Shown: piece after piece, positions 20,827 through 43,573 of the stretch
Position numbering within the stretch: position 1 is the stretch's first letter
Layout: each line of letters begins with the position of its first letter
Assembly: GCA_902523435.1 (NCBI GenBank)
Contig: CABYZM010000002.1
Coordinates: forward strand, 1 to 64,000
DNA from: an uncultured SAR116 cluster alpha proteobacterium
Lineage (GTDB): Bacteria > Pseudomonadota > Alphaproteobacteria > Puniceispirillales > Puniceispirillaceae
Length of the DNA: 64,000 nt
Direction of reading: 5' to 3'
The notes under the pieces: generated by a model
The model's input: only the letters and a program-made list of their open reading frames with translations
The model's database searches: none
Told to the model about the DNA's origin: nothing
Translations under genes and position numbers: made by a program

Positions 20827-20902
20827 AGTCGTTAAATGCATCTAGATAGAACACTAGAATCCGAATCTACGGTCAGGGGTTCCAATTCTCTCGAACGTAC
20901 CA
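20827..20902 (+). pseudogene. Degenerate tRNA-Arg copy
   Basis: Aligns over about 76 nt to the tRNA at 20135-20211 (shared ...GATAGA.CACTAGA..., CGAATCTA, GGTCAGGGGTTC.AAT.CTCTCGA) but acceptor and D stems no longer pair and the T-loop is TTCCAAT. Confidence 0.85.
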
Positions 20903-22372: not shown

Positions 22373-22560
22373 TCATATTCGACGTTGCGCTGCCAACCTA
22401 AAGGGGGCATTAGCTGCACCGAAACCGCGATAACCTGATCGTTGTTCAATGAATTCAAAGAACAAACCATTACCAGCGCAGGCCACGTCAAAGGGCCCAC
22501 ATTATAGCTTTGATGACACTCCGAAGGTTATGGCCTAAGAAAACTCACATGATGCTTGAT
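22373..22560 (-). pseudogene. Remnant of the C-terminus of a 4-hydroxyphenylpyruvate-dioxygenase-like (VOC) protein, possibly of the sugar-isomerase/HPPD fusion (3-dehydroshikimate dehydratase) type
   Basis: Hand translation: ...YDEIKHHVSFLRP*PSECHQSYNVGP / (frameshift) / FDVACAGNGLFFEFIEQRSGYRGFGAANAPFRLAAQRRI*; FFEFIEQRxGYxGFG is the HPPD C-terminal signature. Confidence 0.65.
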
Positions 22561-22679
22561 TTCATCATAGAGAGCCTAGACTTCTACACAAAAGATTACT
22601 GATTCTGCTTGAGCAAAATTATTCTAACAACTGTTGAATAGCTGAAGTCTTGGCATTAACCTGATAAAGCATATTTAGA

Positions 22680-23480
22680 TTATGCATCCATTGCCGCCCG
22701 AATATCCTCATCCGCCATCTCGCGACCCAAATAAGCTTCGACAACGGCCGGGTCACCCTTTACGAATTCCGGAGCACCTTCTGATATTTTTTGGCCATGA
22801 TCAAGCACACTAATTGTATCGCAGGTTGACATAACAACCTTGAGAATATGCTCGACCACAATGATTGTGAGGTTATAACGCTTCTTGAGAGTCATAATTG
22901 TCGACATAAGGTTGTCTACATTTACAGGCGAAAGGCCGGCCCCAGGTTCATCAAGGAGCAACATCTTTGGGCGCATCGCGATAGCCCGCCCAAGTGCCAA
23001 CAGTCGGCGTTGACCTCCTGACAATTCAGCAGCAGGAATCTCTGCATATTCAGCAAGGCCTATAAATTCCAGAAGCTCCTCCATTTCTTCACGAACGACC
23101 TTATCCTGTCGCCTCACCTCAGCGCCATTAATAAGTGGCGCTAGGGGCCCATATTTTGTATGTGGATGGTAGCCCACCATTACATTGTCTAGGACGCTCA
23201 ATTCGCCGTATAAACGAAGAAGCTGAAATGTCCTAGCTAGCCCAAGTTCAGCAATTTTATGCGCAGGACTCCTGGTAATATCTATGCCATTAAAGCTAAT
23301 ATGGCTGCCTTCATCCGGTTGATAAACTCCGGTAAGAAGGTTGAAAAACGTCGATTTACCTGATCCATTGGGCCCAATAAGTCCATGAACTGTATTTGGT
23401 TCAACCTTCAGGCTCACCTTATCGATCGCCTGCAAACCTCCAAAACTTTTACTAAGATTGCGAGTTTCTAGCAGTGCCAC
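22680..23480 (-). CDS. Branched-chain-amino-acid-type ABC transporter ATP-binding protein (LivG-like)
   Basis: GLIGPNGSGKSTFFNLLTG, LSGGQRRLLALGRAIAMRPKMLLLDEPGAGLSP. Confidence 0.92.
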   Translation of the reverse strand: MALLETRNLSKSFGGLQAIDKVSLKVEPNTVHGLIGPNGSGKSTFFNLLTGVYQPDEGSHISFNGIDITRSPAHKIAELGLARTFQLLRLYGELSVLDNVMVGYHPHTKYGPLAPLINGAEVRRQDKVVREEMEELLEFIGLAEYAEIPAAELSGGQRRLLALGRAIAMRPKMLLLDEPGAGLSPVNVDNLMSTIMTLKKRYNLTIIVVEHILKVVMSTCDTISVLDHGQKISEGAPEFVKGDPAVVEAYLGREMADEDIRAAMDA

Positions 23481-24543
23481 CTAACTTCTCCTCACTTCTC
23501 TTTATAAATCTGCGGTTCCGAAGCACGCCCTCGAACCAGCCACCAATCCCCCTTGGCATAAATAGCACCAACAAAACCATTGAAAGTCCGAAGACGAGCG
23601 GCTGAACAACTATGGGACGATCCATAAAATATACCACTAAATCTTTGGTCTGGTCGTAAGCAATAGTCACAACGATCGCGCCTATAACACCGCCCCAAAC
23701 ATTACCTATGCCACCTAAGACTACCATGAGCAGTAAAGTCACCATTTCAATTACTGTAAAATTGTTATGGTGAAGGTAACCTGGCGGCATATGAGCAAAT
23801 AAAGCACCAGCGAGGCCTGCGTAAATCGCGCTAAGTACAAATGCAAGTAGCTTGTATTTAATAACATTGATGCCGTTTACTGAAGCAGCAATGGTATCTT
23901 CCCGTATTGCCTGAAATGCTCGTCCTGTAGCCGAGCGCAGGATCGAAAAAGAGAAATAGATCCCAACAAGCGCAGCCGTCATTACCAAATAGTAATAGCT
24001 TGTGAAGGAATCGAAAACAAAACTGCCAATACTTGGTGCAGGGATCATCATCAAGCCTGTGCTAGATCCTAGTGCCGGAGTAACGGCAATAAAAATACGC
24101 ACTGACTCGCCAAGCCCAAGTGTGGCCAGAGCCAAATATGCGCCCTCTAGCCGGACAGAAGGCAACCCAACGATGAGACCGGCAAAGGCAGTTACTAGAA
24201 TTGCTATTGGAATTGATACCCAGACCGGCAGGCCAAATCCAAGCGCTCCCCCAAATCCCCCAGGCTCAAGTGATAGAACAGCCGAAGTAACTGCGCCGAT
24301 GGCGTAAAGGCCAATATGACCGACTGTAACTTGGCCACAAAATCCTTTAACAATATTTAGGCCAACTGCAAGCAAAATAAACAGACAAGCTCGGTTTGCT
24401 AAGTCGATTAAATAACTGTTGAAAAAGGTCGACATAATGAATGGAAGGGGTAGCAGCATGACATATGCAATCAACCAAGGCAGAAGTCTATGACGACTTG
24501 CAAGCGCATCTATGAGGTCAGCAATACGCGATAGAAATACCAT
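23452..24543 (-). CDS. Liv-type ABC transporter permease (LivM-like)
   Basis: LNIVKGFCGQVTVGHIGLYAIGA, GLPSVRLEGAYLALATLG, VVLGGIGNVWGGVIGA. Confidence 0.92.
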   Translation of the reverse strand: MVFLSRIADLIDALASRHRLLPWLIAYVMLLPLPFIMSTFFNSYLIDLANRACLFILLAVGLNIVKGFCGQVTVGHIGLYAIGAVTSAVLSLEPGGFGGALGFGLPVWVSIPIAILVTAFAGLIVGLPSVRLEGAYLALATLGLGESVRIFIAVTPALGSSTGLMMIPAPSIGSFVFDSFTSYYYLVMTAALVGIYFSFSILRSATGRAFQAIREDTIAASVNGINVIKYKLLAFVLSAIYAGLAGALFAHMPPGYLHHNNFTVIEMVTLLLMVVLGGIGNVWGGVIGAIVVTIAYDQTKDLVVYFMDRPIVVQPLVFGLSMVLLVLFMPRGIGGWFEGVLRNRRFIKRSEEKLGGTARNSQS

Positions 24544-24598
24544 ATGTAGCTGTTCCTTGTGGTGTATTTAAATATTAATTACTAAAAACAAAAAGAAA

Positions 24599-24625
24599 AT
24601 GGTCGGGAACACGTTTCCCGACCAT
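24599..24625 (-). terminator. Strong hairpin between substrate-binding protein and LivM-like gene
   Basis: 11-bp perfect inverted repeat ATGGTCGGGAA-CACGT-TTCCCGACCAT, T-rich on the minus-strand 3' side. Confidence 0.75.
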
Positions 24626-24638
24626 TGATTTTTTATGC

Positions 24639-25844
24639 TTACTCAAGTCCGAAATCAGGCTCCATCGTTACACGCGCAAGAACCTCAGTTTCAAAGTTCT
24701 CACCACCCTTGGTGTAACCAATGAGCACAGCAGTGCGGTTACCATCACGGCACTGTGGTGTCGGAGCAGCGCAGAAGCTGATTGGGCCTGAGGCTAAACC
24801 TTCATAACCCTCTACACTTGCAATTGCATCGCGTATAGCAGTTCGATCTTGTTTAAGTGACCACTGCTCTAATTGCAGGTCGGCGTTGTTCAGCGCAATT
24901 TCCATTATCCGAACGAGATCATAAGCCTGTGAGAAATCATGATCTGGCGCATGAATGCCATAACGCTTACGGGTCATCTCGTTAAACAATTTAGCGATTG
25001 GGCGATTGTCAGCAGCAGCATAGGCAGCTGTGAAGAACACGCCCTTAGCAGCATCACCTGCAATCTTCGGAACTGGCGCGTTAGAAGCTGAAGACGAACC
25101 AATACGGCGCACATCCTCACCAATGCCTGCTTCATAGGACTGTATGAGTGCTCGAGCCATAGTTTCAGCGAGAGCCGCAACTAAAATACCATCGACATTC
25201 ATGGACTTGATCTTCTGCATGTGGGAACGGAAATCCACTTCTTTTTCTTGCACATCAGCTCGGTAAGCAGGGTCGACCCCAAAGCGAGCGCGCATTTGCT
25301 TTTCCATGTTTGCGCAGTCACCCACAGAGGCTGCGTCAGCAGCACATATATAGGCTATCTTTGAACCAATGTTCTCACCAACATATTTTGCATTGACACC
25401 TCCGTAGTAACGGCCTGACACCGGAATACGGAATACCCATTCACTTCCTTTTTGTGTAATTTTTGCGTTAGTGGAATGCGGGATCATTTGCGGAACACCA
25501 GCCTTTGCTGTCACGTCAACAATCGGCAAAGACACAGATGAGCATGTTGAACCGATAAGAAGATGAATGTTTTCCTGGAAGATCAGCTTATTGGCGTTTG
25601 CTACGCCTTTGTCAGACTTACATTCATCATTCATAAGTGTGGCTTTGATCATATTGCCGTTGATGCCTCCAGCATCATTGATTGCCTTGATCTCATCCAT
25701 CACCATCTGGCCGTATGCTTGGCCATTTTCACTCACCATTCGCATTGTGATCCCAACACGAATGTCACCAGCAAAAGCAGCGGTAGTGGCAAGACCAACA
25801 CCTGTAGCTACTAAACCGGCGAAAACTTTATTCATTAGTTTCAT
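24639..25844 (-). CDS. Liv-type ABC transporter substrate-binding protein
   Basis: Signal peptide; DIRVGITMRMVSENGQAYGQ, type-I periplasmic-binding-protein fold pattern. Confidence 0.9.
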   Translation of the reverse strand: MKLMNKVFAGLVATGVGLATTAAFAGDIRVGITMRMVSENGQAYGQMVMDEIKAINDAGGINGNMIKATLMNDECKSDKGVANANKLIFQENIHLLIGSTCSSVSLPIVDVTAKAGVPQMIPHSTNAKITQKGSEWVFRIPVSGRYYGGVNAKYVGENIGSKIAYICAADAASVGDCANMEKQMRARFGVDPAYRADVQEKEVDFRSHMQKIKSMNVDGILVAALAETMARALIQSYEAGIGEDVRRIGSSSASNAPVPKIAGDAAKGVFFTAAYAAADNRPIAKLFNEMTRKRYGIHAPDHDFSQAYDLVRIMEIALNNADLQLEQWSLKQDRTAIRDAIASVEGYEGLASGPISFCAAPTPQCRDGNRTAVLIGYTKGGENFETEVLARVTMEPDFGLE

Positions 25845-25897
25845 GTTTTCCTCCTTTTAATTTTGGGCTTCGCCCGTATTCATAGCGAAACTAGCCG

Positions 25898-26809
25898 CTA
25901 TGCCTTTACTTTTGCCTCAACCCCAAACAAGCCTGATGGCCTGAACATCAAAACTAGGATTAAAAGCAAAAATGCGTAAATGTCTTTATGACTCGCTGAA
26001 ATATAAGCGGCGCCAAGATTTTCAAAAATGCCAACCATGATGCCGCCAAGTATCGCACCAGGAAGCGAACCAAACCCGCCAACAACAGCGGCAGCAAACG
26101 CTTTCATTAACATCAAGTAACCCATTTCCACCTGCACTGATTGCATTGGGCCAATCAACACCCCGGCGGCGGCGGCAAGACCGCAGGCAAGGCCAAAAAT
26201 CAGTGAAATCATCAAGGGTACATTTATGCCCATTAGATAAGCTATGTCCTTGTTATGAGCGACCGCACGAACAGCTAGCCCGGTCTTTGTGTGCCGCAAA
26301 AAATAATGTAGTCCAGCCATTAGTAATACTGAGATGATCGCTGTTAATACATAGCTTTCAGGAACATTGATATCTCCTGGAAAGGTTAACCGCGGTATGT
26401 AGTCAAGATTGGCTCGAAAGGGCTCTGCTTCTGCGCCAAAGAAAAAATAAGCAGCATTAACTAGAGCGACTGACATACCAAAACCGCAGATGATCATTCC
26501 CATACCGGCAACCGTATATCCACCACCAGCACGTGTAAGTCTTCGGTAGAAAACTCTTTCCACTAACATCCCAAGTATGGCCGTAAGTATCATCGCCCCA
26601 ATTAGTGCAACTGGGTAAGGCACACCAACGTTGTGTGCGAGCACAAGCCCAAAAAAGGCGCCAAACATATACATTTCACCATGAGCAAAATGCACAATAT
26701 CTAATCCAGAATAAATCAGCGAGATTCCAAGCGCCACAATTCCATAAACTACGCCAATGGTGACACCAAAAATAATGAAAGCTAGCAACGAGTTAAAATC
26801 AAATCCCAT
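25898..26809 (-). CDS. Liv-type ABC transporter permease (LivH-like)
   Basis: ALGISLIYSGLDIVHFAHGEMYMFGAF, VVGGFGSLPGAILGGIMVGIFENLG. Confidence 0.92.
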   Translation of the reverse strand: MGFDFNSLLAFIIFGVTIGVVYGIVALGISLIYSGLDIVHFAHGEMYMFGAFFGLVLAHNVGVPYPVALIGAMILTAILGMLVERVFYRRLTRAGGGYTVAGMGMIICGFGMSVALVNAAYFFFGAEAEPFRANLDYIPRLTFPGDINVPESYVLTAIISVLLMAGLHYFLRHTKTGLAVRAVAHNKDIAYLMGINVPLMISLIFGLACGLAAAAGVLIGPMQSVQVEMGYLMLMKAFAAAVVGGFGSLPGAILGGIMVGIFENLGAAYISASHKDIYAFLLLILVLMFRPSGLFGVEAKVKA

Positions 26810-26835
26810 AATTTTTAATTCCTACAATTAGCTGT

Positions 26836-27594
26836 CTAATTCCTAAGAGCTTTTGTGGTGTCAGACACAGAACCGCCAAGGAACGATTCCTTAACTGCTG
26901 GGTCACTAATTAGCTTTTTGGCTTCACCTTTCATCATAATCACTCCATCACGAATGATGTAACCATATTGGGCTAATATCAGTGCCATCCTGACATTCTG
27001 TTCAACAACCAAGACCGTCACACCAGATTTCGCGATCCGGTTGATATTAGCAAAAATCTCCAGAACCACTTTCGGAGCTAGTGCAGCGCTTGGCTCATCA
27101 AGCATAAGCATCTTTGGTGATGCCATTAGGCCGCGGCCAATTACCAACATTTGCACCTCACCACCAGACAGCGTTCCAGAAAGCTGCTTTCGTCGCTCGC
27201 GAAGAACTGGAAAAAAATCATAAACCTTTTGAAGATCAGCCTTTGTGGCCTCACGGTCTTTGCGTGTGTAAGCACCAAGGACGAGATTTTCCTCAACTGT
27301 CATAGCCGGGTAGGCTTCTTTTGCTTGGGTTACCTGAACGAGGCCAAGGCGCATGCGCTCGTGAGGCTTCAATTTCGAGACACTCACGCCATCAAAAATG
27401 ATCTCACCTTCCATCAGAGGGATCAATCCTGAAATAGCTTTAAGCAGAGTAGACTTTCCAGTGCCATTCCCTCCTAGGAGGGTAACAATACCGCCACTTG
27501 GCACTTGCATATCTATACCACGCAGGATTTTTAGATTGCCATAGCCCGCGTGCACACCCTTGATCTCAAGCAATATTCCCCCCTGCAGCTTCAA
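26836..27594 (-). CDS. Liv-type ABC transporter ATP-binding protein (LivF-like)
   Basis: LLGGNGTGKSTLLKAISGL, LSGGEVQMLVIGRGLMASPKMLMLDEPSAALAP. Confidence 0.92.
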   Translation of the reverse strand: MKLQGGILLEIKGVHAGYGNLKILRGIDMQVPSGGIVTLLGGNGTGKSTLLKAISGLIPLMEGEIIFDGVSVSKLKPHERMRLGLVQVTQAKEAYPAMTVEENLVLGAYTRKDREATKADLQKVYDFFPVLRERRKQLSGTLSGGEVQMLVIGRGLMASPKMLMLDEPSAALAPKVVLEIFANINRIAKSGVTVLVVEQNVRMALILAQYGYIIRDGVIMMKGEAKKLISDPAVKESFLGGSVSDTTKALRN

Positions 27595-27602
27595 AAAAAT
27601 GA

Positions 27603-27680
27603 ATACCTTTTTGAATTATTAATAGCTTAATTCAAGGTATACATTTAACTTTAAGAGTAAAATGATATGATACCTTTTGA
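27603..27680. promoter_or_regulatory. Candidate operator region: three ATACCTTTT(T)GA-like half-sites, two forming an imperfect inverted repeat
   Basis: ATACCTTTTTGAATTA (27603-27618), TAATTCAAGGTAT (27628-27640, inverted), ATACCTTTTGA (27670-27680), upstream of the LivF-like gene. Confidence 0.4.
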
Positions 27681-27755
27681 GATACGCAAACACTTATTTG
27701 ATGAAAAATCATCATTATTTCACACATAGAAAACCCAGCTTTTTTATAATGTTTA

Positions 27756-28589
27756 TTAGAAGGCAGAGTTCATCCTTTGTATGATTTCCTCTATCATCTT
27801 TTCGGCTGGAGTCTTCCACCAACGGTCACGTGAGAAAATTTCGACTTCAATTGGGCCAAAATAGCCAGCTGCTTCAATCATGTGGCGCCAGTCACAAAGC
27901 GCGATCTGGCCGTCGCCTGGCATTCCACGATCAAGCCGAAGATCCCTTGTGTCAGCAAGCCAATCGGAAACATGGTAATTCAGAATACGCCTACCAGCAC
28001 GTTTCAACTTTTCCTGCAAATCATGTTCCCACCAAAGGGCATAGGTGTCGATGGCAAGGCCTATGTCATGAGAATCATCCATTTGATCAAGAATATCGAG
28101 TGATTCTTGAAGAGTTGAGACAATTGACCGAAAGCCACAGACCATTGGGTGCAGAGGCTCAAAGGCCAGTCTGACCCGATAACTGTCAGCAAGCTCCGCT
28201 GCCAAAGCAAGCCGTTCTACTAATAAACTTCGGGCATAATCGATATCACCATCGTGGCCTGCAGACTTCAGTGCCTCAAATCCACCAGTAATTATCACAA
28301 GAGTTCGGGCACCAAACATATCAGAAAGATCAAGCTGCTCGCGAAGCAACGCTTCATCTTCGAAGAGGCATGCAACACAAAGAGACTCAGCCGTCATACC
28401 AGCGCTATCCCATATCCGTTTGGCTTCGGAAATACCACAAGAGTTGATCATTGGCGTCCATAGCGCGGTTCTTTTGATGCCTGCATTTCTAAGCACTGCC
28501 AGTGAATTAGCGAAATCACATTGGCCTGAAAGTGTCACTTGATGCACGCAAAGGTCATCAAGCTGCAGCTGACGAAGTGCGTTTACCAT
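27756..28589 (-). CDS. Sugar phosphate isomerase/epimerase (AP-endonuclease-2-type TIM barrel)
   Basis: RLAFEPLHPM, DIGLAIDTYALWW, NYHVSDWLADTRD, GMPGDGQIALCDWRHMIEAAGYFGPIEVEIFS. Confidence 0.85.
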   Translation of the reverse strand: MVNALRQLQLDDLCVHQVTLSGQCDFANSLAVLRNAGIKRTALWTPMINSCGISEAKRIWDSAGMTAESLCVACLFEDEALLREQLDLSDMFGARTLVIITGGFEALKSAGHDGDIDYARSLLVERLALAAELADSYRVRLAFEPLHPMVCGFRSIVSTLQESLDILDQMDDSHDIGLAIDTYALWWEHDLQEKLKRAGRRILNYHVSDWLADTRDLRLDRGMPGDGQIALCDWRHMIEAAGYFGPIEVEIFSRDRWWKTPAEKMIEEIIQRMNSAF

Positions 28590-29371
28590 GTGGCCCTCCC
28601 GCCAGTCACATCAAAAATTTGACCGGTGGTAAAACTGCATGCTGGGGAAGCAATAAACGCTGCTACACTGGCAATCTCTTCAGGTGTACATAGACGCCCC
28701 ATGGGGATCCGGCCTTTCTTATCTGCAATATATTCCGCACTCATCTCATCCAGCAAGTCCGTCATTGCCATCGAAGGCGCAATACAATTTACCGTAATCT
28801 CTGATGGTAGCAATTCACGCGCCAGCCCCTTCGCAAGTCCTATGACGCCGGCTTTTGCTGCGCCATAGGGCACGGCACCCGGGTTGCCTTCCTTTCCTGC
28901 GATAGAGGAAATAATGATAATACGGCCTCGTTCCCGTTCCCTCAAATGACCAAGAGCGGCCTGCACAGTCAGAAATACCCCTGTCAGATCAACCGACATC
29001 ACCATTTGCCATTCTGACAGCGAATAATCCCACAACGGTTTTGTTGGCCCATTCACCCCAGCATTTGCAATAACGCCATCAATATCACCAAGAGCTGCGA
29101 GGCTGGCAGCGAACCCCTCCTTTGTCTGCAATGGGTTGCTGACATCAACAATCTGACTGTCAGCGAAAACTGAATTGTTCTTCATACCAGAATCATCAAG
29201 ATCCCAACCAGAAACCTTTGCCCCTAGACTGTTAAAAAGCGAACTGATAGCTAAACCAATGCCTTTGGCTGCACCAGTTACAATGAAGTTTTGACCGGCA
29301 ATATCGACCAGACTTTTCAATTTGATCTCCCCATTTTGAGTTCCACTAGTAATTAGTTGTTCGGCACCCAT
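28583..29371 (-). CDS. SDR family oxidoreductase
   Basis: FIVTGAAKGIGLAIS, ANAGVNG, VPYGAAKAGVIGLAKGLA. Confidence 0.9.
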   Translation of the reverse strand: MGAEQLITSGTQNGEIKLKSLVDIAGQNFIVTGAAKGIGLAISSLFNSLGAKVSGWDLDDSGMKNNSVFADSQIVDVSNPLQTKEGFAASLAALGDIDGVIANAGVNGPTKPLWDYSLSEWQMVMSVDLTGVFLTVQAALGHLRERERGRIIIISSIAGKEGNPGAVPYGAAKAGVIGLAKGLARELLPSEITVNCIAPSMAMTDLLDEMSAEYIADKKGRIPMGRLCTPEEIASVAAFIASPACSFTTGQIFDVTGGRATW

Positions 29372-29784
29372 TGAAGAATATGGCTGGCAACCGCGACAAG
29401 CTCATCATTCTGATTCGTAACCTCAATACCAGCTGTCGACCGGCGCCGCACAACATCGATTTCGCTTACAGTATATGCGACGGTAATCGTATCGCCCAGG
29501 AAGACTGGCTTTAAAAATCTAACCTTGTCATACCCAACTGAGACCGGAGTTTCTTCTGCCTCACGACTATGAGCGATTATCTGGGTCGAGACTGTAGACA
29601 TAAATCCAATGATTAGAGCACCATGTGCCATCAACCGACCATAACTAGATTTTTCCATATAAGCCTTATTGACATGGTTTGGAGAAAAATCACCTGTTAT
29701 GCCCGCAAACTGGTAGACATCACTTTCTGAGACCGTCTTGGTGAAGCTAGTGGTATCGCCAATTTTAAGATAGAAATCCGTCAT
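29353..29784 (-). CDS. MaoC-like (R)-specific hydratase/dehydratase
   Basis: VYQFAGITGDFSPNHVNKAYMEKSSYGRLMAHGALIIGFMS. Confidence 0.88.
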   Translation of the reverse strand: MTDFYLKIGDTTSFTKTVSESDVYQFAGITGDFSPNHVNKAYMEKSSYGRLMAHGALIIGFMSTVSTQIIAHSREAEETPVSVGYDKVRFLKPVFLGDTITVAYTVSEIDVVRRRSTAGIEVTNQNDELVAVASHILQWVPNN

Positions 29785-29806
29785 TTTAATCCCTCCTAAA
29801 TTTCAT

Positions 29807-30868
29807 TTAATTTGAGAGTTGAATGCGCTTTCCACCCGTCGCTGCGCGCGCAGCTGCGAGTGTAGCATCAAGTGATCTGCTCCCATTTAGCGCATCGACA
29901 ATAGGTGTTTCATAGCCGCATGCAACGGCCCGCAAATGTTCGCACTGCGCCACATAGGCATCAATGAACGGCGCCTCAATTACTTCAGGCGCGATCTCCT
30001 GGTGCCAGTTACCATTATCATCAGCATGCTTCCACAGCACCAGATTCGGAAATTCCAGCGCACCTTGAACACCCAAAAAGCGAATGCTATTCATGCCAGT
30101 CTTAGGAAATTTTACACTTTCACCAAGCGCCATTTCCCAGGTCCAGGGGGACGGCGTTCGATCCGAAAGCAAAAAACTTCCAACCGCCTGATTGGCAAAT
30201 TTCAAGCTTATTGCAACCGCATCTTCCTTCTCAAAATTTTGATCATGATTAGTCATCTCAGCAGAAACCGACGCGATGTCACCACAAATAAAACGCAAGA
30301 GATCAATTTCATGAATTAGGTTGGTCAGAATTGGGCCAGCCTCGAAATTACGGCGCCACGCTGGAGCGAAATAGTCTTCATCCTTGCGCGTTGTCCACTG
30401 ACCAGTTACCGCCATAAGCCTGCCGATGCGGCCATTTTGAATAATATCTCGCGCTATTTGCGCGCAAGGATAATATCGCCTCTGATGGCCAACAAGAACT
30501 TGGCATCCCTGTTCAGCTGCATAGTTAGTCACCTCGTCAGCCTCTTTCGTGGTCGCAGTAATCGGCTTTTCAACCAATACCGTCTTGCGATACTTGAGAA
30601 CCATCATCAAATCAGCATGGTGACGCTCTGTTGGGGTGGCAATGATAACTGCATCAACATCTGTTTTTGAGAGCATGCTCTCAGCATTAGCAAAAGCCTC
30701 AAGGCCGCGAGATTCCGCAAGCTTTGCCGCTGCGGGCGCTGGGTCTGCAATAGCTACAAGCTCGATCAGCGCCAACTCATCAATGGCCTTAATATGCCTC
30801 GTGCCAATCGAACCAGCACCAATCAGCCCAATTCTGAATACATCCATTGACGGTCCCCACTTCATCAT
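29807..30868 (-). CDS. Gfo/Idh/MocA family oxidoreductase
   Basis: RIGLIGAGSIGTRHIKAI, VLVEKPITATTKEADEV, GPILTNLIHEIDLLRFICGDI. Confidence 0.9.
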   Translation of the reverse strand: MMKWGPSMDVFRIGLIGAGSIGTRHIKAIDELALIELVAIADPAPAAAKLAESRGLEAFANAESMLSKTDVDAVIIATPTERHHADLMMVLKYRKTVLVEKPITATTKEADEVTNYAAEQGCQVLVGHQRRYYPCAQIARDIIQNGRIGRLMAVTGQWTTRKDEDYFAPAWRRNFEAGPILTNLIHEIDLLRFICGDIASVSAEMTNHDQNFEKEDAVAISLKFANQAVGSFLLSDRTPSPWTWEMALGESVKFPKTGMNSIRFLGVQGALEFPNLVLWKHADDNGNWHQEIAPEVIEAPFIDAYVAQCEHLRAVACGYETPIVDALNGSRSLDATLAAARAATGGKRIQLSN

Positions 30869-32394
30869 TTTTTAAAATAATTACCGTCCATTTCAGACAG
30901 AGGTGAATTCATGTTTGGTACAAACCCCATTCGGTCAAGCAAATCTGTTTGCAAGTCAATTCCTGGGGCGATCTCAATTATGTGCAAGCCATTTTCTCGC
31001 AACTCAAAAACCGCGCGCTCAGTAATGTAAATAACTTTCTGACCTTGCACTAATGATTGGGGACCTGAAAAGGTTATCTGGTCGACCTTATCGACCAGCT
31101 TAGAGATCCGCCCATGCTCTGTCACTCGCATGACGCCAGAACCCACCTCAGTGCGGGCGCCACCTGTATCAAAAGTACCGCAAAACACCACCTTACGTGC
31201 GTTTTGGGCAATATCAATAAAACCACCCGGCCCAACAGTATTGCCACCGAGCTTGGAAACATTGACATTGCCGACAGCGTCTATCTCACCAAAACCGAGA
31301 AAGGCTATGTCCAGTCCACCGCCCGAATAAAAATCAAACTGCGAAGGACCGTCGATCATACAACTTGGATTCATAGCATACCCAAACAGATCTCCATCCA
31401 TTAGCCTGCCGCCATAGGTGCCATGCTCAATAGTCTGAAAATATCGCGCCGATTTGCCGTCATGGTCGATCAACTTGGCAATCTGGTCGGGGATACCGAA
31501 GCCAAAATTTATCACAGCATTATCATAAAGCTCCTGTTGAGCGCGGCGTGCTATTACCAAACGTGATGAAAACAACGGCTCAGGTTGAGCAAAACCCTCT
31601 CTACGTTTCTGACCAGACAACGCTGCGTCATAGACCACTTCGTAGCCCTGCTGCTGTGTTTCATCAACAACAACAGCATCGACCAGCGCTCCCGGAATAC
31701 GTACTTCGCGTGCCTTCATGCTATGGCGTGGAACCATTCCTCGTACCTGGAAAATTACTTTTCCACCACTGTTATGTGCTGCGGCGGCTATCGCATAAAT
31801 GTCAAGATTAGCCGGCTCTTCCTCCAATGAAATATTACCCTCTTCATCGGCGTAACTACCACGAAGAAGAGCTACCGTTACTGGAATTGGCAGATAGCGT
31901 AAATAATCTCTACCTTCTATGGTTATAATTTCCGTCAGATTTTGCTTTGCAGCCTCGTTCATGCGTCCACCATCCAGCCGCGGATCAACAAAGGTACCAA
32001 GCCCAACATGAGTGATTAACCCAGGACGACCAGCGGCTACCTCGCGCATCAATTGCATGATCACCCCACCAGGCAGCACATAAGCCTCAATATCGTTATT
32101 CCGCGCCATCTGCTGCATCCGTGGTGACCATACCCAATGCCCCCCAATCACACGGCTGGTCATGCCTACATGAGCAAATCGGTTCATGCCACGCTCCTGC
32201 CTATCGCCTATACCAAGCGCATGAATACAAGTTAAATTTTGGGGATGGCCAGTTTCAAGAAAACTTCGCTCCACAGCAGCATGTAGTGCGCTCGCCTCAA
32301 CCAAACCGCCACCGCCACCAGCAAGACCAATCGTATCACCATCCTTAATCATGGCTGCAGCTTCGTCCGCAGAAAGGAATTTTACTTTTGTCAT
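30865..32394 (-). CDS. Family I acyl-CoA:carboxylate CoA-transferase (propionate/acetate CoA-transferase-like)
   Basis: Fused alpha/beta CoA-transferase architecture; NFGFGIPDQIAKLI, FQTIEHGTYGG, GGGLDIAFLGFGEIDAVGNVNVSKLGG. Confidence 0.88.
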   Translation of the reverse strand: MTKVKFLSADEAAAMIKDGDTIGLAGGGGGLVEASALHAAVERSFLETGHPQNLTCIHALGIGDRQERGMNRFAHVGMTSRVIGGHWVWSPRMQQMARNNDIEAYVLPGGVIMQLMREVAAGRPGLITHVGLGTFVDPRLDGGRMNEAAKQNLTEIITIEGRDYLRYLPIPVTVALLRGSYADEEGNISLEEEPANLDIYAIAAAAHNSGGKVIFQVRGMVPRHSMKAREVRIPGALVDAVVVDETQQQGYEVVYDAALSGQKRREGFAQPEPLFSSRLVIARRAQQELYDNAVINFGFGIPDQIAKLIDHDGKSARYFQTIEHGTYGGRLMDGDLFGYAMNPSCMIDGPSQFDFYSGGGLDIAFLGFGEIDAVGNVNVSKLGGNTVGPGGFIDIAQNARKVVFCGTFDTGGARTEVGSGVMRVTEHGRISKLVDKVDQITFSGPQSLVQGQKVIYITERAVFELRENGLHIIEIAPGIDLQTDLLDRMGFVPNMNSPLSEMDGNYFKK

Positions 32395-33572
32395 CTTGCT
32401 TGTTCATAGATGTCGAAAAGGCCGACATCCCCCTTCATCATCTGTCGAGCCATAACCATACGGTGAATTTCTGAAGTTCCGTCATATATCCGCGCGATGC
32501 GCGCATCTCTGTAATAACGCTCAATCGGCAAATCACAGCAATATCCAGCACCACCATAGATTTGAACCGCTCGGTCAACAACCCGCCCAAGCATTTCTGA
32601 AGCCTGCACTTTTAGCATCGATATCGCACCCCGTGCCTCTTCTCCAGCATCAATACGGCTTGCCGTCTGCCAGAGGGCCAGTCGGCAAGCGTTGATCTCC
32701 ATCGCCGAGTCGGCAAGCATATGCTGGATCATCTGGAATTCCCCAATTGGTGAGCCAAATTGCCTCCTATCCTTAGAATAACGAAGACAGCTATCGAGGA
32801 TCATGCTGCCCCTGCCCACGGCTCGTGCGGACACCTGCGCTAACCGCACACGACCAAGAGTTGCTAGCGCCAACTTTAAGCCTTGGCCCTCCTTTCCAAG
32901 AAGGCAGCCTTCATTAAGTTTCACATTCTCAAAGTGCATTTCTACGTGTGAAGTACCCTTTAGCCCCATCATCGGCTGATCTCGACCAACGGTGAACCCT
33001 GCAAGCCCCTTGTCGAGAATAAATGTGGAAATTCCACGCGCACCTGCGTCGGGGTTTGTGACTGCGGTAACAATGAAGAAGTCAGAATACAAACCATCCG
33101 AGATGAAATGCTTGGAACCGTTCAGCACCCAACCGTCATTCTTTCGGACTGCTCTAGTTTTTATAGCAGCAGCATCAGACCCCGCCTCAGGTTCAGTGAA
33201 GGCTACAGAGAAGGTTCGGTCACCACGAACCGCAGGAATTAGATATGTCTCGATCTGCGCGTCTGTGCCTTCTAGCAAAATTTCGTAAACATTGCCGAAG
33301 GCACGGCGAACCAAAATGTCACTAGTGCGGCCAAACTGCTCTTCAGCGATCATCCAGTCCAAAACCGACAGACCACCACCGCCGTATTTAGTTGGAATAT
33401 TAACTGCATAAAGACCGAGTTCCTGTGATTTAGCTCGGATCTCAGAGGCCACATCATCAGCAAGTCGACCAGTCTTTTCGATGCCTTCCTCTAACGGCCG
33501 TAACTCAGACTCAATGAAACCTCGGATGCTAGAAACAAGCAGATGCTGCTCCTCAGACAAAGAAAAATCCAT
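32391..33572 (-). CDS. Acyl-CoA dehydrogenase
   Basis: AFTEPEAGSDAAAIKTRAV, MILDSCLRYSKDRRQFGSPIGEFQMIQHMLADS, QIYGGAGYCCDLPIERYYRDARIARIYDGTSEI. Confidence 0.92.
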   Translation of the reverse strand: MDFSLSEEQHLLVSSIRGFIESELRPLEEGIEKTGRLADDVASEIRAKSQELGLYAVNIPTKYGGGGLSVLDWMIAEEQFGRTSDILVRRAFGNVYEILLEGTDAQIETYLIPAVRGDRTFSVAFTEPEAGSDAAAIKTRAVRKNDGWVLNGSKHFISDGLYSDFFIVTAVTNPDAGARGISTFILDKGLAGFTVGRDQPMMGLKGTSHVEMHFENVKLNEGCLLGKEGQGLKLALATLGRVRLAQVSARAVGRGSMILDSCLRYSKDRRQFGSPIGEFQMIQHMLADSAMEINACRLALWQTASRIDAGEEARGAISMLKVQASEMLGRVVDRAVQIYGGAGYCCDLPIERYYRDARIARIYDGTSEIHRMVMARQMMKGDVGLFDIYEQAR

Positions 33573-34357
33573 TAAAAATACCCCTTTGTCGCGCCACCAT
33601 CTACAGCAATGCCCGCACCATGGATATGGCGTGCCTCGTTACTACAGAGAAATGCAACAAGCGCTGCAGTATCCTCTGGCTGCCCAAGACGGCGAATGCC
33701 TTCGGCCTGCATACGCTCAGCTCGGACATCATCGACGCTCCGATTCTCATCACGCGCCCGTGTCTCGAGAAGTTGTTGCAAGCGCTCGGTCTCCGTCTGA
33801 CCCGGATTAATCCAATTTACATTTACATCATCTTGAAGGCCTTGACCCGCCAGTGCCTTGCTGAAATTTGCAAGCGCCGCATTGACTGCACCACCAACCA
33901 TAAATTTGGCATCAGGATTGCGCGACGCGCCACCCACAATCATTATCACATTACCGCGCGCGGCAACAAGCGACGGCCAGAAGAGGCGTGACAGCCGGAC
34001 CCCGGCATGGAATTTAAGCGCAAAACCATCAATGAAATCAGTATCGTCTTGGTCAGGGAATACACCACCCTTAGTTGCGCCTGCGCTATGAACTAAAATA
34101 TCACAAGAATTAAAAGCTTTACCTTGCGCGTCGAACACAGACTGGCACCCTTCAAATGTTCGCAGGTCGGCAGCACAGGCCTCAACGCGGCCACCAGAAT
34201 TGGAAGCAATTCTCTTAACCGCTACATCGCAATTGGATTGACTGCTGCCGCTAACCATAACATCTGCACCTTCTCTTGCTAAACGCTCAGCGATAGCAAG
34301 CCCAATGCCCCTCGTTCCACCAGACACAAAGGCAGTCTTCCCTGTCAATAAACCCAT
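33572..34357 (-). CDS. SDR family protein with degenerate catalytic motif
   Basis: TGKTAFVSGGTRGIGLAIAERLA Rossmann motif; expected YxxxK region reads MVGGAVNAALANFSKALA. Confidence 0.85.
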   Translation of the reverse strand: MGLLTGKTAFVSGGTRGIGLAIAERLAREGADVMVSGSSQSNCDVAVKRIASNSGGRVEACAADLRTFEGCQSVFDAQGKAFNSCDILVHSAGATKGGVFPDQDDTDFIDGFALKFHAGVRLSRLFWPSLVAARGNVIMIVGGASRNPDAKFMVGGAVNAALANFSKALAGQGLQDDVNVNWINPGQTETERLQQLLETRARDENRSVDDVRAERMQAEGIRRLGQPEDTAALVAFLCSNEARHIHGAGIAVDGGATKGYF

Positions 34358-34360
34358 TTT

Positions 34361-35359
34361 TTATCCTCCCTCGCGGTGGTAAGAGCCGACATAATGTGTT
34401 TCGATACCCTTCACAAACCCATAAAGACTACGCAATGTTGGAACAGCGAGGCCAGCCTCGTCGGCAAGCTGCAGTGGCACGCCATAAATAAATTCGACTT
34501 CGCTAGGCCGGCGCGCCAACACATCCAAGCAAAGAGAAGATTTGTTGTCACCGGTACCGCCCGGTGCTGTCATCAACTCAAGTCCCTTTACCACAACGTC
34601 GCGATCAAGATTAATATCTTGAGAGCGCGCAATTGAAATTGCCTCGTCAAGCGCGGCATAACAGACTTTGCGGAGTGGCTCCAGTCTCAGGATTTCAACA
34701 CTAGTCAGATTAGTTACTCCAGAGACAGCACTCATCGCCATATTGCCAATAAGCTTTTTCCAGATGTCCATTCTGATGTCAGTACTCGCATATGTCTCCA
34801 ACCCGGCCGCTGTAAATGCAGCGGCAACCGCTTCAGCGCGCACAGAAATGCCGCCACCCCATTCACCAATGTAGGAAGGCACTCGGTCAAAATCGCGGAT
34901 CTGCCCAGGACCTGTTTGAGCGCCAGCCATCGAGGTCAACCCGCCCAGGACATTCTCAAGACCAAGAATGTCCGCAAGAACATCCTCGTTGCCTAGGCCA
35001 TTTTGAAAACTTATAAAAACGGCACCTGCATCTGCAAGATGCGTCATTGCAAGCGCCGCCTGATGAGTTGCTGTTCCCTTACATTGTACCAGCACAATAT
35101 CAGTTTGCTCAATCTGTTTAACGTCATGTGTTGCCTTCAGCATGAGCCGACTGTTGTCGCCATATCCAGAGACCAGAAGTCCATTCTTTTGAATTGCATT
35201 GATGTGTTCGCGATTAGTATCCACAAGCGTTACCTCAAGACCCCCTTCAGAGAGGATTGCGCCAAACAGGGCCCCCATACCACCAGCACCAACGACGGTC
35301 ACATGATGAATTTGTTTTGTCATGTCATCTTCCCTTTCTGCACGAGCTAGTTCACTCAA
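34361..35359 (-). CDS. 2-dehydropantoate 2-reductase (ApbA/PanE) family protein
   Basis: VTVVGAGGMGALFGAILSEGG, ISFQNGLGNEDVL, WKKLIGNMAMSAVSGVT. Confidence 0.88.
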   Translation of the reverse strand: MSELARAEREDDMTKQIHHVTVVGAGGMGALFGAILSEGGLEVTLVDTNREHINAIQKNGLLVSGYGDNSRLMLKATHDVKQIEQTDIVLVQCKGTATHQAALAMTHLADAGAVFISFQNGLGNEDVLADILGLENVLGGLTSMAGAQTGPGQIRDFDRVPSYIGEWGGGISVRAEAVAAAFTAAGLETYASTDIRMDIWKKLIGNMAMSAVSGVTNLTSVEILRLEPLRKVCYAALDEAISIARSQDINLDRDVVVKGLELMTAPGGTGDNKSSLCLDVLARRPSEVEFIYGVPLQLADEAGLAVPTLRSLYGFVKGIETHYVGSYHREGG

Positions 35360-35805
35360 GCCCCTTCTCTTTTTCGCAAGAGACGATGCACGGCATTAAG
35401 CCCCAAGTAAAAGGAGTCTGCACCAAACCCAACAACGCTGCCATCACTGACTCCTGCTGTAAGGCTCACCTGCCTGAAATTTTCTCGACTATCGTTGTTC
35501 GATAGATGTACCTCGACCTTAGGGCCATCAAACATTGCCAGCGCATCACGAAGTGCTATCGAAGTGTGCGTATAGGCAACCAAGTTGAACAGAATCGACG
35601 TGGCTTTATCGCGCGCCTCCTGAAGCGCAGTTACTAGAACTCCCTCTTCATTCGATTGTATGATTTCTATACTTCGGCCGAGCCGCTCAGCTTCAACGAC
35701 AAGCTCTTTCAAAATATCAGCCATGCTATCTGCACCATAAATTTCCGGTTCACGTGTCCCGAGAAAATTCAGGTTGGGCCCAAAGATGACCAGTATATCA
35801 ACCAT
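35356..35805 (-). CDS. Type II 3-dehydroquinate dehydratase-like protein (divergent AroQ)
   Basis: FGPNLNFLGTREPEIYG, QSNEEGVLV, AYTHTSIALRDAL, VEVHLSNNDSRENFR. Confidence 0.85.
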   Translation of the reverse strand: MVDILVIFGPNLNFLGTREPEIYGADSMADILKELVVEAERLGRSIEIIQSNEEGVLVTALQEARDKATSILFNLVAYTHTSIALRDALAMFDGPKVEVHLSNNDSRENFRQVSLTAGVSDGSVVGFGADSFYLGLNAVHRLLRKREGA

Positions 35806-35834
35806 TTTACTTTTATCCCCACTTTATATTCAGA

Positions 35835-36635
35835 TTATTCGAATGTTACTTTTATCTCGCCAAGCTCACCAAAATTAGCGTGTACATAATCTCCAGATGA
35901 AAAGGATTGTGGCACCGATGCAGCGCCCGTAGAGATAAAATCTCCTATCTGCAATTCGTAGCCACGCAACGCCAAATGATTAACCAGGTCGGCCGCGGCT
36001 TGCTCTGGAACACAACGCATTTCACCAAGGAAATTATCAGCAGGCGTGCCATCACTCACTGTAAGTTCGATTAGATGCTGTCGATAATCTATCCCCTGCC
36101 AATCTTCTACAGGGTCGCCGAATATAAAGCCTATGCCGCCGCCATTGTCTGCAATCGTCATAAGCGAAGTTTCTGCTTTTCTGGCATCTTCTAGCTTAAA
36201 GCGATTACCTATAATCTCTATCGCGGGATGAAGCACCATCATGGTTTCCATCTCAGAGGCAGTCCAAGGCTTCTGGCGAAGATGCGGTTTGGCAGTCAGC
36301 TGGAAGGCGAATTCAGCCTCGGCTCGAGCACTAGGAAAATATTTAATTGGCAGGTTATGATAAGCTCCAAAATAACTTCTGGACTGAAATATGCGACCAG
36401 GAATTACATCCTCATGACCGTCAAGCTCACGCATTCTTGCGCTAGTCGCGCCAACTTTCCAACCAACCACGCCCTGTTGGAGCTCCTCATACATACAATC
36501 CTGGACAAAATAGGCCTCTACTCGATTAAGTGGAAAAAAACGAGAATCAATATTGATGAAGTTTCCTGGATCACGCCATGAATTTGCTAGCATATTAGCT
36601 AACTCGACTAGTACGGGCTTACGCGTTTCTTCCAT
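35835..36635 (-). CDS. 2-keto-4-pentenoate hydratase (MhpD)/fumarylacetoacetate hydrolase-like
   Basis: VGWKVGATSARMREL, GRIFQSRSY, ARAEAEFAFQL, HPAIEIIGNRF, LRGYELQIGDFISTGAASVPQSFSSGDYVHANFGELGEIKVTF. Confidence 0.85.
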   Translation of the reverse strand: MEETRKPVLVELANMLANSWRDPGNFINIDSRFFPLNRVEAYFVQDCMYEELQQGVVGWKVGATSARMRELDGHEDVIPGRIFQSRSYFGAYHNLPIKYFPSARAEAEFAFQLTAKPHLRQKPWTASEMETMMVLHPAIEIIGNRFKLEDARKAETSLMTIADNGGGIGFIFGDPVEDWQGIDYRQHLIELTVSDGTPADNFLGEMRCVPEQAAADLVNHLALRGYELQIGDFISTGAASVPQSFSSGDYVHANFGELGEIKVTFE

Positions 36636-37205
36636 ATATTTGCCTCCTCAACAACCTAAATGGCTGTCGATAGTAAACTTCAAACGTACAGGCAATGTGC
36701 TGAGCTAGAAAGAGCAAATATGATGAAATAACATCATGACGAAATATTCGCTTGCAAATCATTAAATGCTGTGTGCTGAAGGCAAGTTTTCTGAATTTTA
36801 AACAGGAGATTCATTCAAGAATGTATCCTATCATTTCACTATAATCATAGACCAACTCATCGACCGCAGAAGCAGTGCGCTCCTTGTCATTCAAGCATCA
36901 ACCCCTCCGCCATTACTTATCCAACAGGAAAAATACAGATTCGAAAAGAGAAAAATGATCGCAAGAAATCAAGTGATGCCTGGGTCAGGCTCACTTAATC
37001 AAGTAAATTAACTTAGAGGCCATTCTTTATTAACGTCGAAGACGCGAGTGCAAGATGGCGGAGAAATGAGACAAGTCCTGAACCCGAATTTTACAATTCG
37101 GGATTTGTTGACTGCTCAAACCGAAACAGCTTGATTGCTTCTATGGTTTTGATACCGTTGATGATGGAGAGCTTTTGCATCTGCGCAACAGCAACGAGGT
37201 AATTT

Positions 37206-38741
37206 ATGTCAGCTGCGTTAGGCCCGCAAAAATACCGGCCAATTCATTTTATGCTCAACGGACAGGCGCATGAGATCGAAAGACTCCGCCCTGATACAAC
37301 CCTACTGCAATTGCTGCGCGGTCCGCATAACCTGACCGGTACAAAAGAGGGTTGTGCTGAAGGCGATTGCGGGGCTTGCACGATTTTGGTGGGGCGGTTG
37401 CAAGCAGGCCAGATAGTTTGGCAACCTGTGAACGCTTGCATACTGTTGCTCCCAATGGCTGATAAATCTGTCATCCGAACAGTTGAGGGTGTTGCAAAGG
37501 AAGATGGGACGCTACACCCGGTTCAACAGGCGATGGTAGACCATCACGGCTCACAATGCGGGTTCTGCACCCCAGGGTTTGTAATGTCTTTATATGGAGG
37601 CTGGCTAAACAGATCTTCTTTTAGTGCCTCTGACCTTGATGATTTGCTTGCAGGAAATCTTTGCCGTTGCACTGGATATGGCCCAATTATTAAAGCTGGC
37701 GAATCATTGGCAGGACAACCTCTTGCTGAATGGGAAACAGTTCTGCTAGATGAAGAAAAAGCCTATTTAGAGACATGTGAGGCACTTCCAGGGCTGGTTT
37801 ATGCGGCAGAAGGAGCCTCATTTATTGCTCCTCTTTCAAAGGATAGTTTCGCGCGAGCCTTTATGGAACAGCCTGGGGCACAGATTATCGCAGGGGCAAC
37901 AGATATTGGCTTATGGATCACTAAGCAAAATCAGAAATTGCTTTCATTTATATCTGTTCAGGATGTGAGTGGGCTGGATGATGTAACAGAGCAAAAGGAC
38001 GGCTTTTATATTGGCGCCGCCGCTACACATCATAAAGCAGCTGATTTTCTGGCGGCACATTTTCCATCTTTAAAGGAATTATGGCGACGTTTTGGTTCAG
38101 TCCAAGTAAGGGCAAGTGGGACGATAGGCGGCAATATTGCCAACGGCTCTCCAATTGGTGACCTAGCACCTGCCTTTATCGCTCTGGATGCCGACCTGCT
38201 TCTTCGACGTGGAAAAGAAGAGCGAAGGCTGAAACTAGAAGATTTCTTTTTGTCTTACGGTCAGCAGGACCGGCAACAAAGTGAATGGGTGGATGGCCTG
38301 TTTATTCCGAAATTATCAACGGATTGGAAATTCAATTGTTACAAACTTTCCCGTAGGTTTGACCAAGACATTTCAGCCGTAATGGGAGCTTTTGCTCTCA
38401 AAATAGAGGATGGCAAGATTACAGCTGCACGAATAGCCTTTGGGGGCATGGCCGGTGTTCCGCAACGCGCCCGCTCACTTGAAACAGCTCTTATTGGACA
38501 GGCTTTGGAGCCAGACAAGATAAATGAACCAGCAATCGATTCAGCCCTGGCAGATGATTTTACACCGATAAGTGATGTCAGAGCCTCAGCAGAGTATCGA
38601 TTGCTTGGCGCCCGCAATCTCTTACAGAAATGCCGTTTGGAAATGATAGTAGACAAGCCTGTAAGGCTCGCAGGAGAGGGATTAGCATCGGCAGGGTTGT
38701 CCCCCTTGTGCAGCATCGCCTCCAGCGAGGCAAGACAATGA
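37206..38741 (+). CDS. xdhA: Xanthine dehydrogenase small subunit (2Fe-2S plus FAD)
   Basis: [54 protein letters not shown] domain [32 protein letters not shown] upstream of ATG. Confidence 0.95.
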
Positions 38742-41056
38742 CCCTGCCTGTAAAATCCAGGCAAGTTCACGCAGCCCTACGCCATGAAAGTGCCGCCCTT
38801 CATGTCACTGGGCAAGCTCGCTATGTAGATGATATGGCCCTACCAGAAAACTCTGTACATATTGCACTTGGGTTAAGTGCTGTCGCGCATGGCCGGCTAA
38901 TCTCAATTGATGCTGAAGCTGCTTTGCGCATGCCAGGAGTGCGGGCAGTGCTTACGGCTGCTGATATTCCCGGAAAAAACGACTGCAGCCCGGTAAAGGG
39001 TGATGACCCTATATTTGCCAAAGATGAGATTATGTATCATGGACAGACGCTATTCGCGGTAGTTGCTAATACACGAGCACAAGCCAGAGACGCAGTAGAA
39101 CAGGTGAAGACTAAAATTACACCGCTTGCCCCTATCTTAAACATCGATGCAGCTATTGAGCAGGAAAGTTTTCTTGAAAAACCACTGACTCTATCATCCG
39201 GACAGGCAGATAATGCCTATGCGGCAGCCCCCTGCCAGCTGGCAGGAGAGCTGTATGCCGGTGGGCAAGAGCATTTTTATCTGGAAGGCCAGGCCGCCAT
39301 TGCCCAGGCAGATGAAAATGGAGGCATTCAGTTATTTGTATCTACACAGCACCCAAGTGAAATTCAGCATAAGGTTGCTGGCATGTTGGGGCTAACTTAT
39401 GGTGATATTCAGGTTGATGTCAGACGGATGGGCGGAGGCTTTGGAGGCAAGGAAAGCCAGAGCAATCTAACCGCCTGCATTGCTGCACTTGCTGCTCATA
39501 AAACAGGGCGCCCAGCCCGCCTTGTCTATGACCGAGATGATGACATGCGGGTCACAGGTAAGCGCCATGATATCAAGTTGGTCTATAAAGTTGGCTTTGA
39601 TCAGGATGGGCGATTAATTGCGCTAATTATTGACCAGTATCTGCGATGTGGAATGTCTTATGATCTGTCAAAGGCTATTGCCATCCGGGCGATGACACAC
39701 GCTGAAAATGCCTACGCCATCCCTCACACCCGCATTACCGCCCATTTATGCAAAACACATACCCCTTCGAATACAGCATTTAGGGGATTTGGCGGCCCAC
39801 AGGGCATGATCGGTATCGAACAGATCATGGATAAAATCGCTACTCATCTGAACTTGGACCCAATCGCCCTCAGACAGCTGAATTACTATCCTGATTATGA
39901 AGCCGGCACGCCGTGCTGCACACCCTATGGCCAGATTGTCAAAGATGGGCTGCTTGGAAAGATAACAAAACAGCTCTTAGAAACCGCTGATTATCAAAAC
40001 AGACGACAACAGATCGACACCCACAACCAGACTAATCCGGTGCTACGACGTGGCCTAGGATTTGCACCAGTTAAATTTGGGATCTCCTTTAACAGAACCA
40101 TGTTGAATCAAGGTGGTGCTCTTGTTAATGTCTATTCAGATGGCTCAGTGCACCTCAATCATGGCGGTACTGAGATGGGCCAAGGGCTACATACAAAGAT
40201 CATCCAAATTGTAGCTGATGTGTTTGGACTAGCACATGAAGATGTCCGAATTTCAGCCACGACCACAGGCAAAGTGCCAAACACATCTGCGACAGCGGCT
40301 TCATCCGGAACTGACCTGAACGGGATGGCTGCTGCACGCGCAGCTGATGCCATCAAACAGCGCATGACCGCCCATCTAGCTGAGCTTTATCAGTGTAAAG
40401 CGGATAGGATTACTTTTCAGGATAGACAGGTCAACCTGCCTTCTAGTGAATATCTGTCTTTTTCTAAAGCCGTCGGATTATGTTATGAGGGACGGGTCTC
40501 GCTCTCTGCAACAGGCTTTTATGCTACACCTGATATCCATTGGGATGATGCCAGCCTGACCGGCTCACCCTATTATTATTTTGCTTATGGTGCCGCATTA
40601 TGTGAGGTCGCGATTGACAGGCTAACAGGTGAGTCTCGAATCCTACGCACAGATATTCTTCATGATGCTGGTCATTCCATTAATCCAGCGCTTGATAAGG
40701 GCCAAATTGAAGGCGGGTTTGTTCAAGGCGCTGGCTGGCTGACCACTGAGGAACTTGTCTACGGACAGGATGGGGCGTTGCTGACACATGCGCCATCCAC
40801 CTATAAAATTCCAGCTTGTTCAGACAGACCTTATCTTCTCAACATCAACCTTTATGAAGGGGACGGTAATCGTTCAGAGACCATTCACAGATCAAAAGCT
40901 GTTGGTGAGCCTCCTTTCATGCTTGGAATATCTGTTTTTCTTGCCTGCGGGGATGCACTAAGAGGCCTGAGCTCAACAAAAAGCTACCCTGAGCTGCACG
41001 CGCCCGCTACTGCAGAACGTCTATTGATGGCTGCACAGGCGCAGCAAAAATTATGA
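38738..41056 (+). CDS. xdhB: Xanthine dehydrogenase molybdopterin-binding large subunit
   Basis: [54 protein letters not shown]; start placed at MTLPVKS giving ATGA overlap with xdhA. Confidence 0.95.
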
Positions 41057-43522: not shown

Positions 43523-43536
43523 AAGACCAGCCAATC

Positions 43537-43573
43537 CATCAAAACAGCCTGCATTAAGCAGGCTGTTTTGATG
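43537..43573 (-). terminator. Very strong hairpin between substrate-binding protein and ATPase genes
   Basis: 16-bp perfect inverted repeat CATCAAAACAGCCTGC-ATTAA-GCAGGCTGTTTTGATG. Confidence 0.85.

Follow-up and report, generated by a model that had tools for sequence, protein, structure and literature searches.

Three described catabolic systems stand closest to the locus analyzed here, an operon at positions 22680 to 36635 of a 64,000-nucleotide stretch of DNA (hereafter the window; positions 1 to 64,000 of contig CABYZM010000002.1, assembly GCA_902523435.1) from an uncultured SAR116 cluster alphaproteobacterium: the quinate/shikimate route to protocatechuate with 4,5-cleavage, the cyclohexanecarboxylate/cyclohexenecarboxyl-coenzyme A (CoA) pathways (Ali/Bad), and inositol catabolism (IolG/IolE). 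We read the operon as catabolic, serving a quinate- or shikimate-type hydroaromatic carboxylic acid and including a CoA-thioester branch, and give this reading a probability of roughly 0.6; which acid it is and how the CoA branch works are predictions from sequence. The operon's parts belong to known families and its aromatic branch, found in relatives, is textbook, while the combination is without a described match in the literature searched. That search, with most subscription journals outside its coverage, did not return quinate or shikimate catabolism combined with an acyl-CoA dehydrogenase and a CoA-transferase. The Iad auxin operon, which surfaced as a literature match, showed no gene correspondence.

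With the quinate/shikimate pathway the locus shares an AroQ within the operon, QuiC (3-dehydroshikimate dehydratase) and lig genes adjoining it in relatives, and scars of these genes in the window itself. It differs in its large CoA-thioester module, its Liv importer, the LacI regulator seen in relatives, and its persistence where the aromatic branch has been lost. It also lacks a classical quinate dehydrogenase: family profiles reveal no quinate or shikimate dehydrogenase of known family among the 15 operon genes, and a Gfo/Idh enzyme is the candidate instead. Of the 3-dehydroshikimate dehydratase, the window retains only a C-terminal stump, while full-length QuiC lies near the operon in relatives; LigAB and the downstream enzymes are deleted at this locus, with no LigB found in the window's own genome (G000), and are present beside the operon in two relatives (G005 and G013). 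The Ali/Bad pathways offer a possible parallel in the successive action of an acyl-CoA dehydrogenase, a hydratase and a short-chain dehydrogenase/reductase (SDR) on a ring acyl-CoA. The operon departs from them in having a CoA-transferase rather than a ligase and additional AroQ, Gfo, TIM barrel, PanE and MhpD enzymes; no BadI-type ring-opening hydrolase was seen, as family profiles detect no crotonase among the 15 genes. Inositol catabolism has in common a Gfo/Idh dehydrogenase, a xylose isomerase-like TIM barrel and, in relatives, a LacI regulator, but the operon's Gfo scores 133.9 against an IolG cut-off of 355, its TIM barrel is not IolE, and IolD, IolC and IolB were not found among the 15 genes.

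The open reading frame list shows 15 consecutive, intact minus-strand genes. A preliminary description of the window had counted 14, but its picture of a co-directional, mostly overlapping set stands, and family profile matches bear out the gene families that it named, including a complete Liv-type (HAAT) ABC importer. The features are as follows, from the upstream end:

35835 to 36635, minus strand: MhpD-like protein of the 2-keto-4-pentenoate hydratase family (FAH superfamily), K60/E106/E108/E140 kept; profile match to 2wqt/1sv6
35356 to 35805, minus strand: AroQ, type II 3-dehydroquinate dehydratase, second catabolic paralog; over an NCBIfam cut-off and in its own clade
34361 to 35359, minus strand: PanE/ApbA-like 2-keto-acid reductase; TIGR00745 over cut-off, PF02558/PF08546
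33572 to 34357, minus strand: SDR oxidoreductase 1; PF13561
32391 to 33572, minus strand: acyl-CoA dehydrogenase (ACAD); PF00441/PF02770/PF02771, matching short-chain ACAD structures
30865 to 32394, minus strand: fused family I CoA-transferase, YdiF/FadX-like; TIEHG motif, match to YdiF (2ahu) at E=3e-128
29807 to 30868, minus strand: Gfo/Idh/MocA dehydrogenase; Pfam match and a 69% identical ortholog in G021
29353 to 29784, minus strand: MaoC-type (R)-enoyl-CoA hydratase; PF01575
28583 to 29371, minus strand: SDR oxidoreductase 2, FabG-like; family profiles
27756 to 28589, minus strand: AP_endonuc_2 TIM barrel isomerase/dehydratase; PF01261, invariant E144/D181/H206/E250 in the alignment, nearest structures 3ju2 and 3qc0
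26836 to 27594, minus strand: LivF ATPase; family profile
25898 to 26809, minus strand: LivH permease; family profile
24639 to 25844, minus strand: type I substrate-binding protein (SBP; LivK), with an invariant Ser251 at the position of Glu226 in the leucine-binding protein (LBP)
24598 to 24626, minus strand: perfect inverted repeat in the SBP-livM gap, with a 12-bp stem and T-rich tails on both strands; sequence scan
23452 to 24543, minus strand: LivM permease; family profile
22680 to 23480, minus strand: LivG ATPase; family profile

Most adjoining genes overlap or lie at most 30 bp apart, the larger gaps being LivF-TIM (161 bp), SBP-LivM (95 bp) and LivH-SBP (53 bp). The inverted repeat in the second of these could tune expression of the binding protein, and the LivF-TIM intergenic RNA fold has z=-1.67. 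A promoter scan returned fewer sites than in shuffles, and no operon promoter was identified. The MhpD-like protein is divergent, without a Pfam match and with a 2-keto-4-pentenoate hydratase profile match at E=8e-17; its K60/E106/E108/E140, which we presume to have the role known for the family, are invariant in the ortholog alignment. Its relatives at about 30% identity in the same order occur in different contexts and were set aside as nonorthologous.

The dehydroquinate/dehydroshikimate node carries much of the argument. AroQ scores 172.9 bits against a cut-off of 171 for PRK05395.1-3 and matches PF01220 at 4e-47, although it falls below TIGR01088 (153 versus 169.85); 39 3-dehydroquinate dehydratase structures match it. 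Profile and motifs together place it among the type II enzymes: NLNFLGTREPEIYG, FNLVAYTHTS and EVHLSNNDSRENFR, aligned to 6smf, supply the Asn/Arg/Tyr N-terminal motif, the His/Asn and Glu-x-His elements and the Arg...Arg pair, residues whose catalytic roles we take to be those of the family. In relatives carrying the operon this AroQ is a second copy, the other lying elsewhere in the genome, and in the tree the operon copies of SAR116 group together in a single clade (96/93) separate from the housekeeping copies. AroQ proteins of clusters outside SAR116 (L056, L061, L062, and L065) belong to a different group. The enzyme was therefore recruited to the cluster at least twice, which argues that a dehydroquinate-like intermediate belongs to the pathway. 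Clustering of adjoining reading frames combined with family scans also placed full-length QuiC near the cluster at five loci (L016, L056, L058, L063, and L094), and AroE in the L056 cluster (365 bits against an NCBIfam cut-off of 295), with a homolog in L095. At two further loci QuiC is truncated: next to livG (L021:16782-17780 and L086:13234-14232) the gene has lost its 5' end and middle part while the operon is intact, apparently another loss of the aromatic branch.

The preliminary description had found no protocatechuate ring-cleavage gene and took this to mean that the pathway is not the textbook quinate route; in that form the argument fails, as the absence is explained by a probable deletion in the window's lineage. 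In the congener G005 the genes LysR-LigA-LigB-LigC-LigU-LigI-LigK-LigJ-QuiC lie directly downstream of livG, with LigB, LigK and the oxalomesaconate tautomerase over their NCBIfam cut-offs; LigA, LigC, LigI, LigJ and QuiC take their names from matches below cut-off, from Pfam or from homology. The corresponding stretch of G013 holds an MFS gene, LysR and LigABCUIJ. Window and G005 align at 93% identity across livG and into the C-terminus of LysR; at 22475 to 22479 the alignment jumps, with a G005 segment of 8,632 bp missing from the window, and it resumes at 87% identity inside the QuiC C-terminus. A second jump, at 36802 to 36804, has removed 1,159 bp, including the LacI gene between mhpD and xdhA in G005. 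Comparison with G005 defines three remnants:

22379 to 22468, minus strand: quiC C-terminal stump at the junction of the 8,632-bp deletion (22475 to 22479)
22479 to 22599, plus strand: LysR regulator C-terminal stump of the deleted lig cluster
36765 to 36802, minus strand: LacI regulator C-terminal stump at the 1,159-bp deletion junction (36802 to 36804)

Since the flanks carry independent substitutions and the joints are without a long repeat, true deletions are likelier than misassembly. All 15 operon genes have dN/dS values of 0.03 to 0.26 relative to G005 (Nei-Gojobori), indicating purifying selection, and because this selection persists the operon is probably functional without the aromatic branch. 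Its persistence under selection without the ring-cleavage cluster also makes a further, nonaromatic route plausible.

The gene set is not a chance grouping, since 15/15 genes are collinear in five other SAR116 genomes (L014 in G005, L016 in G008, L019 in G023, L020 in G013, and L021 in G015), at protein identities of about 48 to 99%. Partial contigs of G004, G018, G024 and G016 agree with the window's gene order, with one exception in the G016 fragment, where PanE directly follows MhpD. Among named loci sharing this operon, L076 is the closest; it comes from uncultured SAR116 cluster alpha proteobacterium AG-894-E05 (same contig as G005:C1). Beyond the family, loci with the importer and most of the enzymes are found again with changed gene order and strand (L049/L056, L050, L051, L058, L062, L065, and further L067, L070, L071, L077, L083, and others), so that co-occurrence in other genomes, which the preliminary description had proposed as a check, is found both in SAR116 and in other classes. 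One scan of genome contigs turned up over 50 loci encoding a binding protein of at least 50% identity, a lower bound given the pattern-based search, from Alpha-, Beta- and Gammaproteobacteria, “Deltaproteobacteria,” SAR324 and Methylomirabilota; several of these loci have the importer without the enzymes. A phylum-wide SBP search found no further orthologs, a weak negative with at most four candidates scored per genome. Plasmid carriage was dismissed, with only weak matches of at most 30% identity.

Importer and dehydrogenase add to this picture. By sequence, the nearest binding proteins of solved structure are leucine binders, but SBP Ser251, invariant in 16 orthologs, aligns with Glu226 of the Escherichia coli LBP, the residue that we take to hold the ligand's alpha-ammonium group. 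With this Glu lost and the Ser/Thr carboxylate motif kept, the protein would suit a carboxylic acid ligand that has no amino group; its predicted fold is confident (pLDDT 86). The Gfo enzyme has an ortholog (69% identity) in G021, a genome without the operon, where it follows LigJ in a QuiC-LysR-LigABCUIKJ cluster. This identity is as close as in some operon-bearing genera, and given this position Gfo is the strongest candidate for the enzyme that oxidizes the ring hydroxyl. The link between Gfo and an aromatic cluster rests on this one genome plus the operon itself; G011 keeps Gfo without the cluster, and G001 and G002 have a lone 57 to 58% homolog. The annotated Gfo start at 30868 is probably wrong and the real one Met8 (about 30847), because G005 has a stop at codon 3.

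We therefore favor the hydroaromatic member of the substrates named in the preliminary description (a hydroaromatic, cyclitol or keto acid), which has strong support from the neighbors QuiC, AroE, extra AroQ and LigABCUIKJ in relatives; cyclitols and keto acids appear less favored. In the proposed route, the LivFGHKM-type importer would take up the acid, as the SBP and gene linkage suggest. A dehydrogenase, most likely Gfo/Idh, would oxidize a hydroxyl group of the ring, yielding 3-dehydroquinate or a closely related analogue, and AroQ, by its family and catalytic residues, would dehydrate this to 3-dehydroshikimate. In most relatives QuiC would then form protocatechuate for cleavage by LigABCUIKJ, whose genes lie beside the operon in two genomes. 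Alongside this branch or in its place, a CoA thioester, either of the ring acid or of a side chain attached to it, may be broken down by the CoA-transferase, MaoC, the SDRs, the acyl-CoA dehydrogenase and the PanE-like and MhpD-like enzymes, with a 2-oxo-acid product suggested by PanE and MhpD being 2-oxo-acid enzymes. The window's species would have deleted the aromatic branch at this locus together with the LacI regulator and kept the 15 genes.

Several points weigh against this reading. Its substrate and activities are deduced from family membership and linkage, and its ten enzymes are far more than quinate would seem to require. The SBP fold search matches amino acid and hydroxybenzoate binders alike and is not informative. 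Marine relatives L089, L092 and L098 carry the CoA module with no AroQ nearby. The association of QuiC and LigB with the operon among high-quality relatives speaks for the reading, with QuiC in 5/5 with the operon (counting the truncated QuiC of G015 as present) versus 8/35 without it (Fisher P = 0.002) and LigB in 4/5 versus 6/35 (P = 0.01), but these tests ignore phylogeny. Neither intact QuiC nor LigB was found in the window's own 1.5-Mb metagenome-assembled genome (64% complete), and G015, which is 96% complete, has a truncated QuiC and likewise yielded no LigB. From these losses the aromatic branch looks dispensable, and the retention of the 15 genes after them suggests that the CoA branch suffices.

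It is accordingly conceivable, and we hold it tentatively as a minority view, that the operon encodes a nonaromatizing CoA-thioester route for quinate/shikimate-type acids. Dehydroshikimate or shikimate would be loaded onto CoA, MaoC would hydrate the conjugated double bond, and SDR oxidation followed by ring opening would give a 2-oxo-acid acyl-CoA, whose degradation PanE, MhpD and the acyl-CoA dehydrogenase would complete without oxygen-dependent ring cleavage. Such a route would explain why lineages drop QuiC and Lig yet retain the 15 genes.

A conjugate as substrate, for example an acyl-quinate or a hydroaromatic acid bearing a side chain, seems to us rather unlikely. Here the CoA enzymes would beta-oxidize the side chain, leaving the ring to AroQ, QuiC and Lig, in line with the full ACAD, hydratase and SDR set adjoining AroQ, with an enoyl-CoA hydratase family gene that is an extra neighbor in 14 loci and adjoins livG in some relatives, and with the binding of hydroxycinnamates by some Liv-type binding proteins (4f8j and 4eyo); no thiolase or esterase was found among the 15 genes, however. 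Unlikelier again is another polyhydroxylated ring or sugar-like acid, such as a cyclitol acid or a mycosporine-type core, with AroQ and Gfo acting on analogues and Lig/QuiC forming a separate module on the island. In its favor, relatives have LacI-type regulators with sugar-binding domains on the flanks of the cluster, next to mhpD in eight SAR116 loci and to the importer in others, cyclitol and glycoside routes typically employ Gfo and AP_endonuc_2 enzymes, and some clusters are without AroQ, but the repeated recruitment of AroQ and the linkage of AroE and QuiC speak against it. For mycosporine degradation, neither a supporting paper in the literature searched nor a gene link was found. An ordinary branched-chain amino acid importer beside an unrelated mixed acyl-CoA operon is very improbable despite the leucine-binding structures nearest the SBP, given the replacement of the ammonium ligand Glu226 by an invariant Ser and the retention of importer and enzymes together across classes.

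Other features lie around the operon in the window and its relatives. In L089, L092 and L098 an HIBADH-like and TIM barrel pair (c17 and c15) replaces MhpD/AroQ/PanE/SDR1 ahead of the acyl-CoA dehydrogenase, and a PhyH dioxygenase follows livG in L089 and L092. A fatty acid desaturase family gene, absent from the window, lies directly upstream of mhpD in G004 (L015:5530-6675), and G008 has a similar protein beyond LacI. The window also contains a purine catabolism island (37206 to 47620) with xdhA, xdhB, xdhC, an NMT1-type ABC importer, ureidoglycolate lyase, a cupin, and an OHCU decarboxylase fused to a polysaccharide deacetylase domain. A degraded tRNA-Arg-like copy (20827 to 20898), about 0.6 kb from the intact tRNA-Arg (20135 to 20211) and a 78% match to a tRNA-like stretch of G005, is possibly an old integration site. 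A beta-keto acid cleavage enzyme (BKACE) gene (52978 to 53904) belongs to a separate minus-strand group.

SAR116 is an abundant surface-ocean clade, and an operon-bearing member, apparently “Ca. Puniceispirillum marinum” IMCC1322, is in culture, which makes the prediction directly testable. IMCC1322 is described as encoding many branched-chain amino acid ABC transporters but perhaps lacking a workable way to degrade those amino acids (PMC11813361); the importer described here may account for some of these annotations. If our reading of the operon is correct, SAR116 importers that are routinely assigned to branched-chain amino acids would take up alicyclic acids, about which little is known as a component of marine dissolved organic carbon, and there may be a hydroaromatic route that avoids aromatization.

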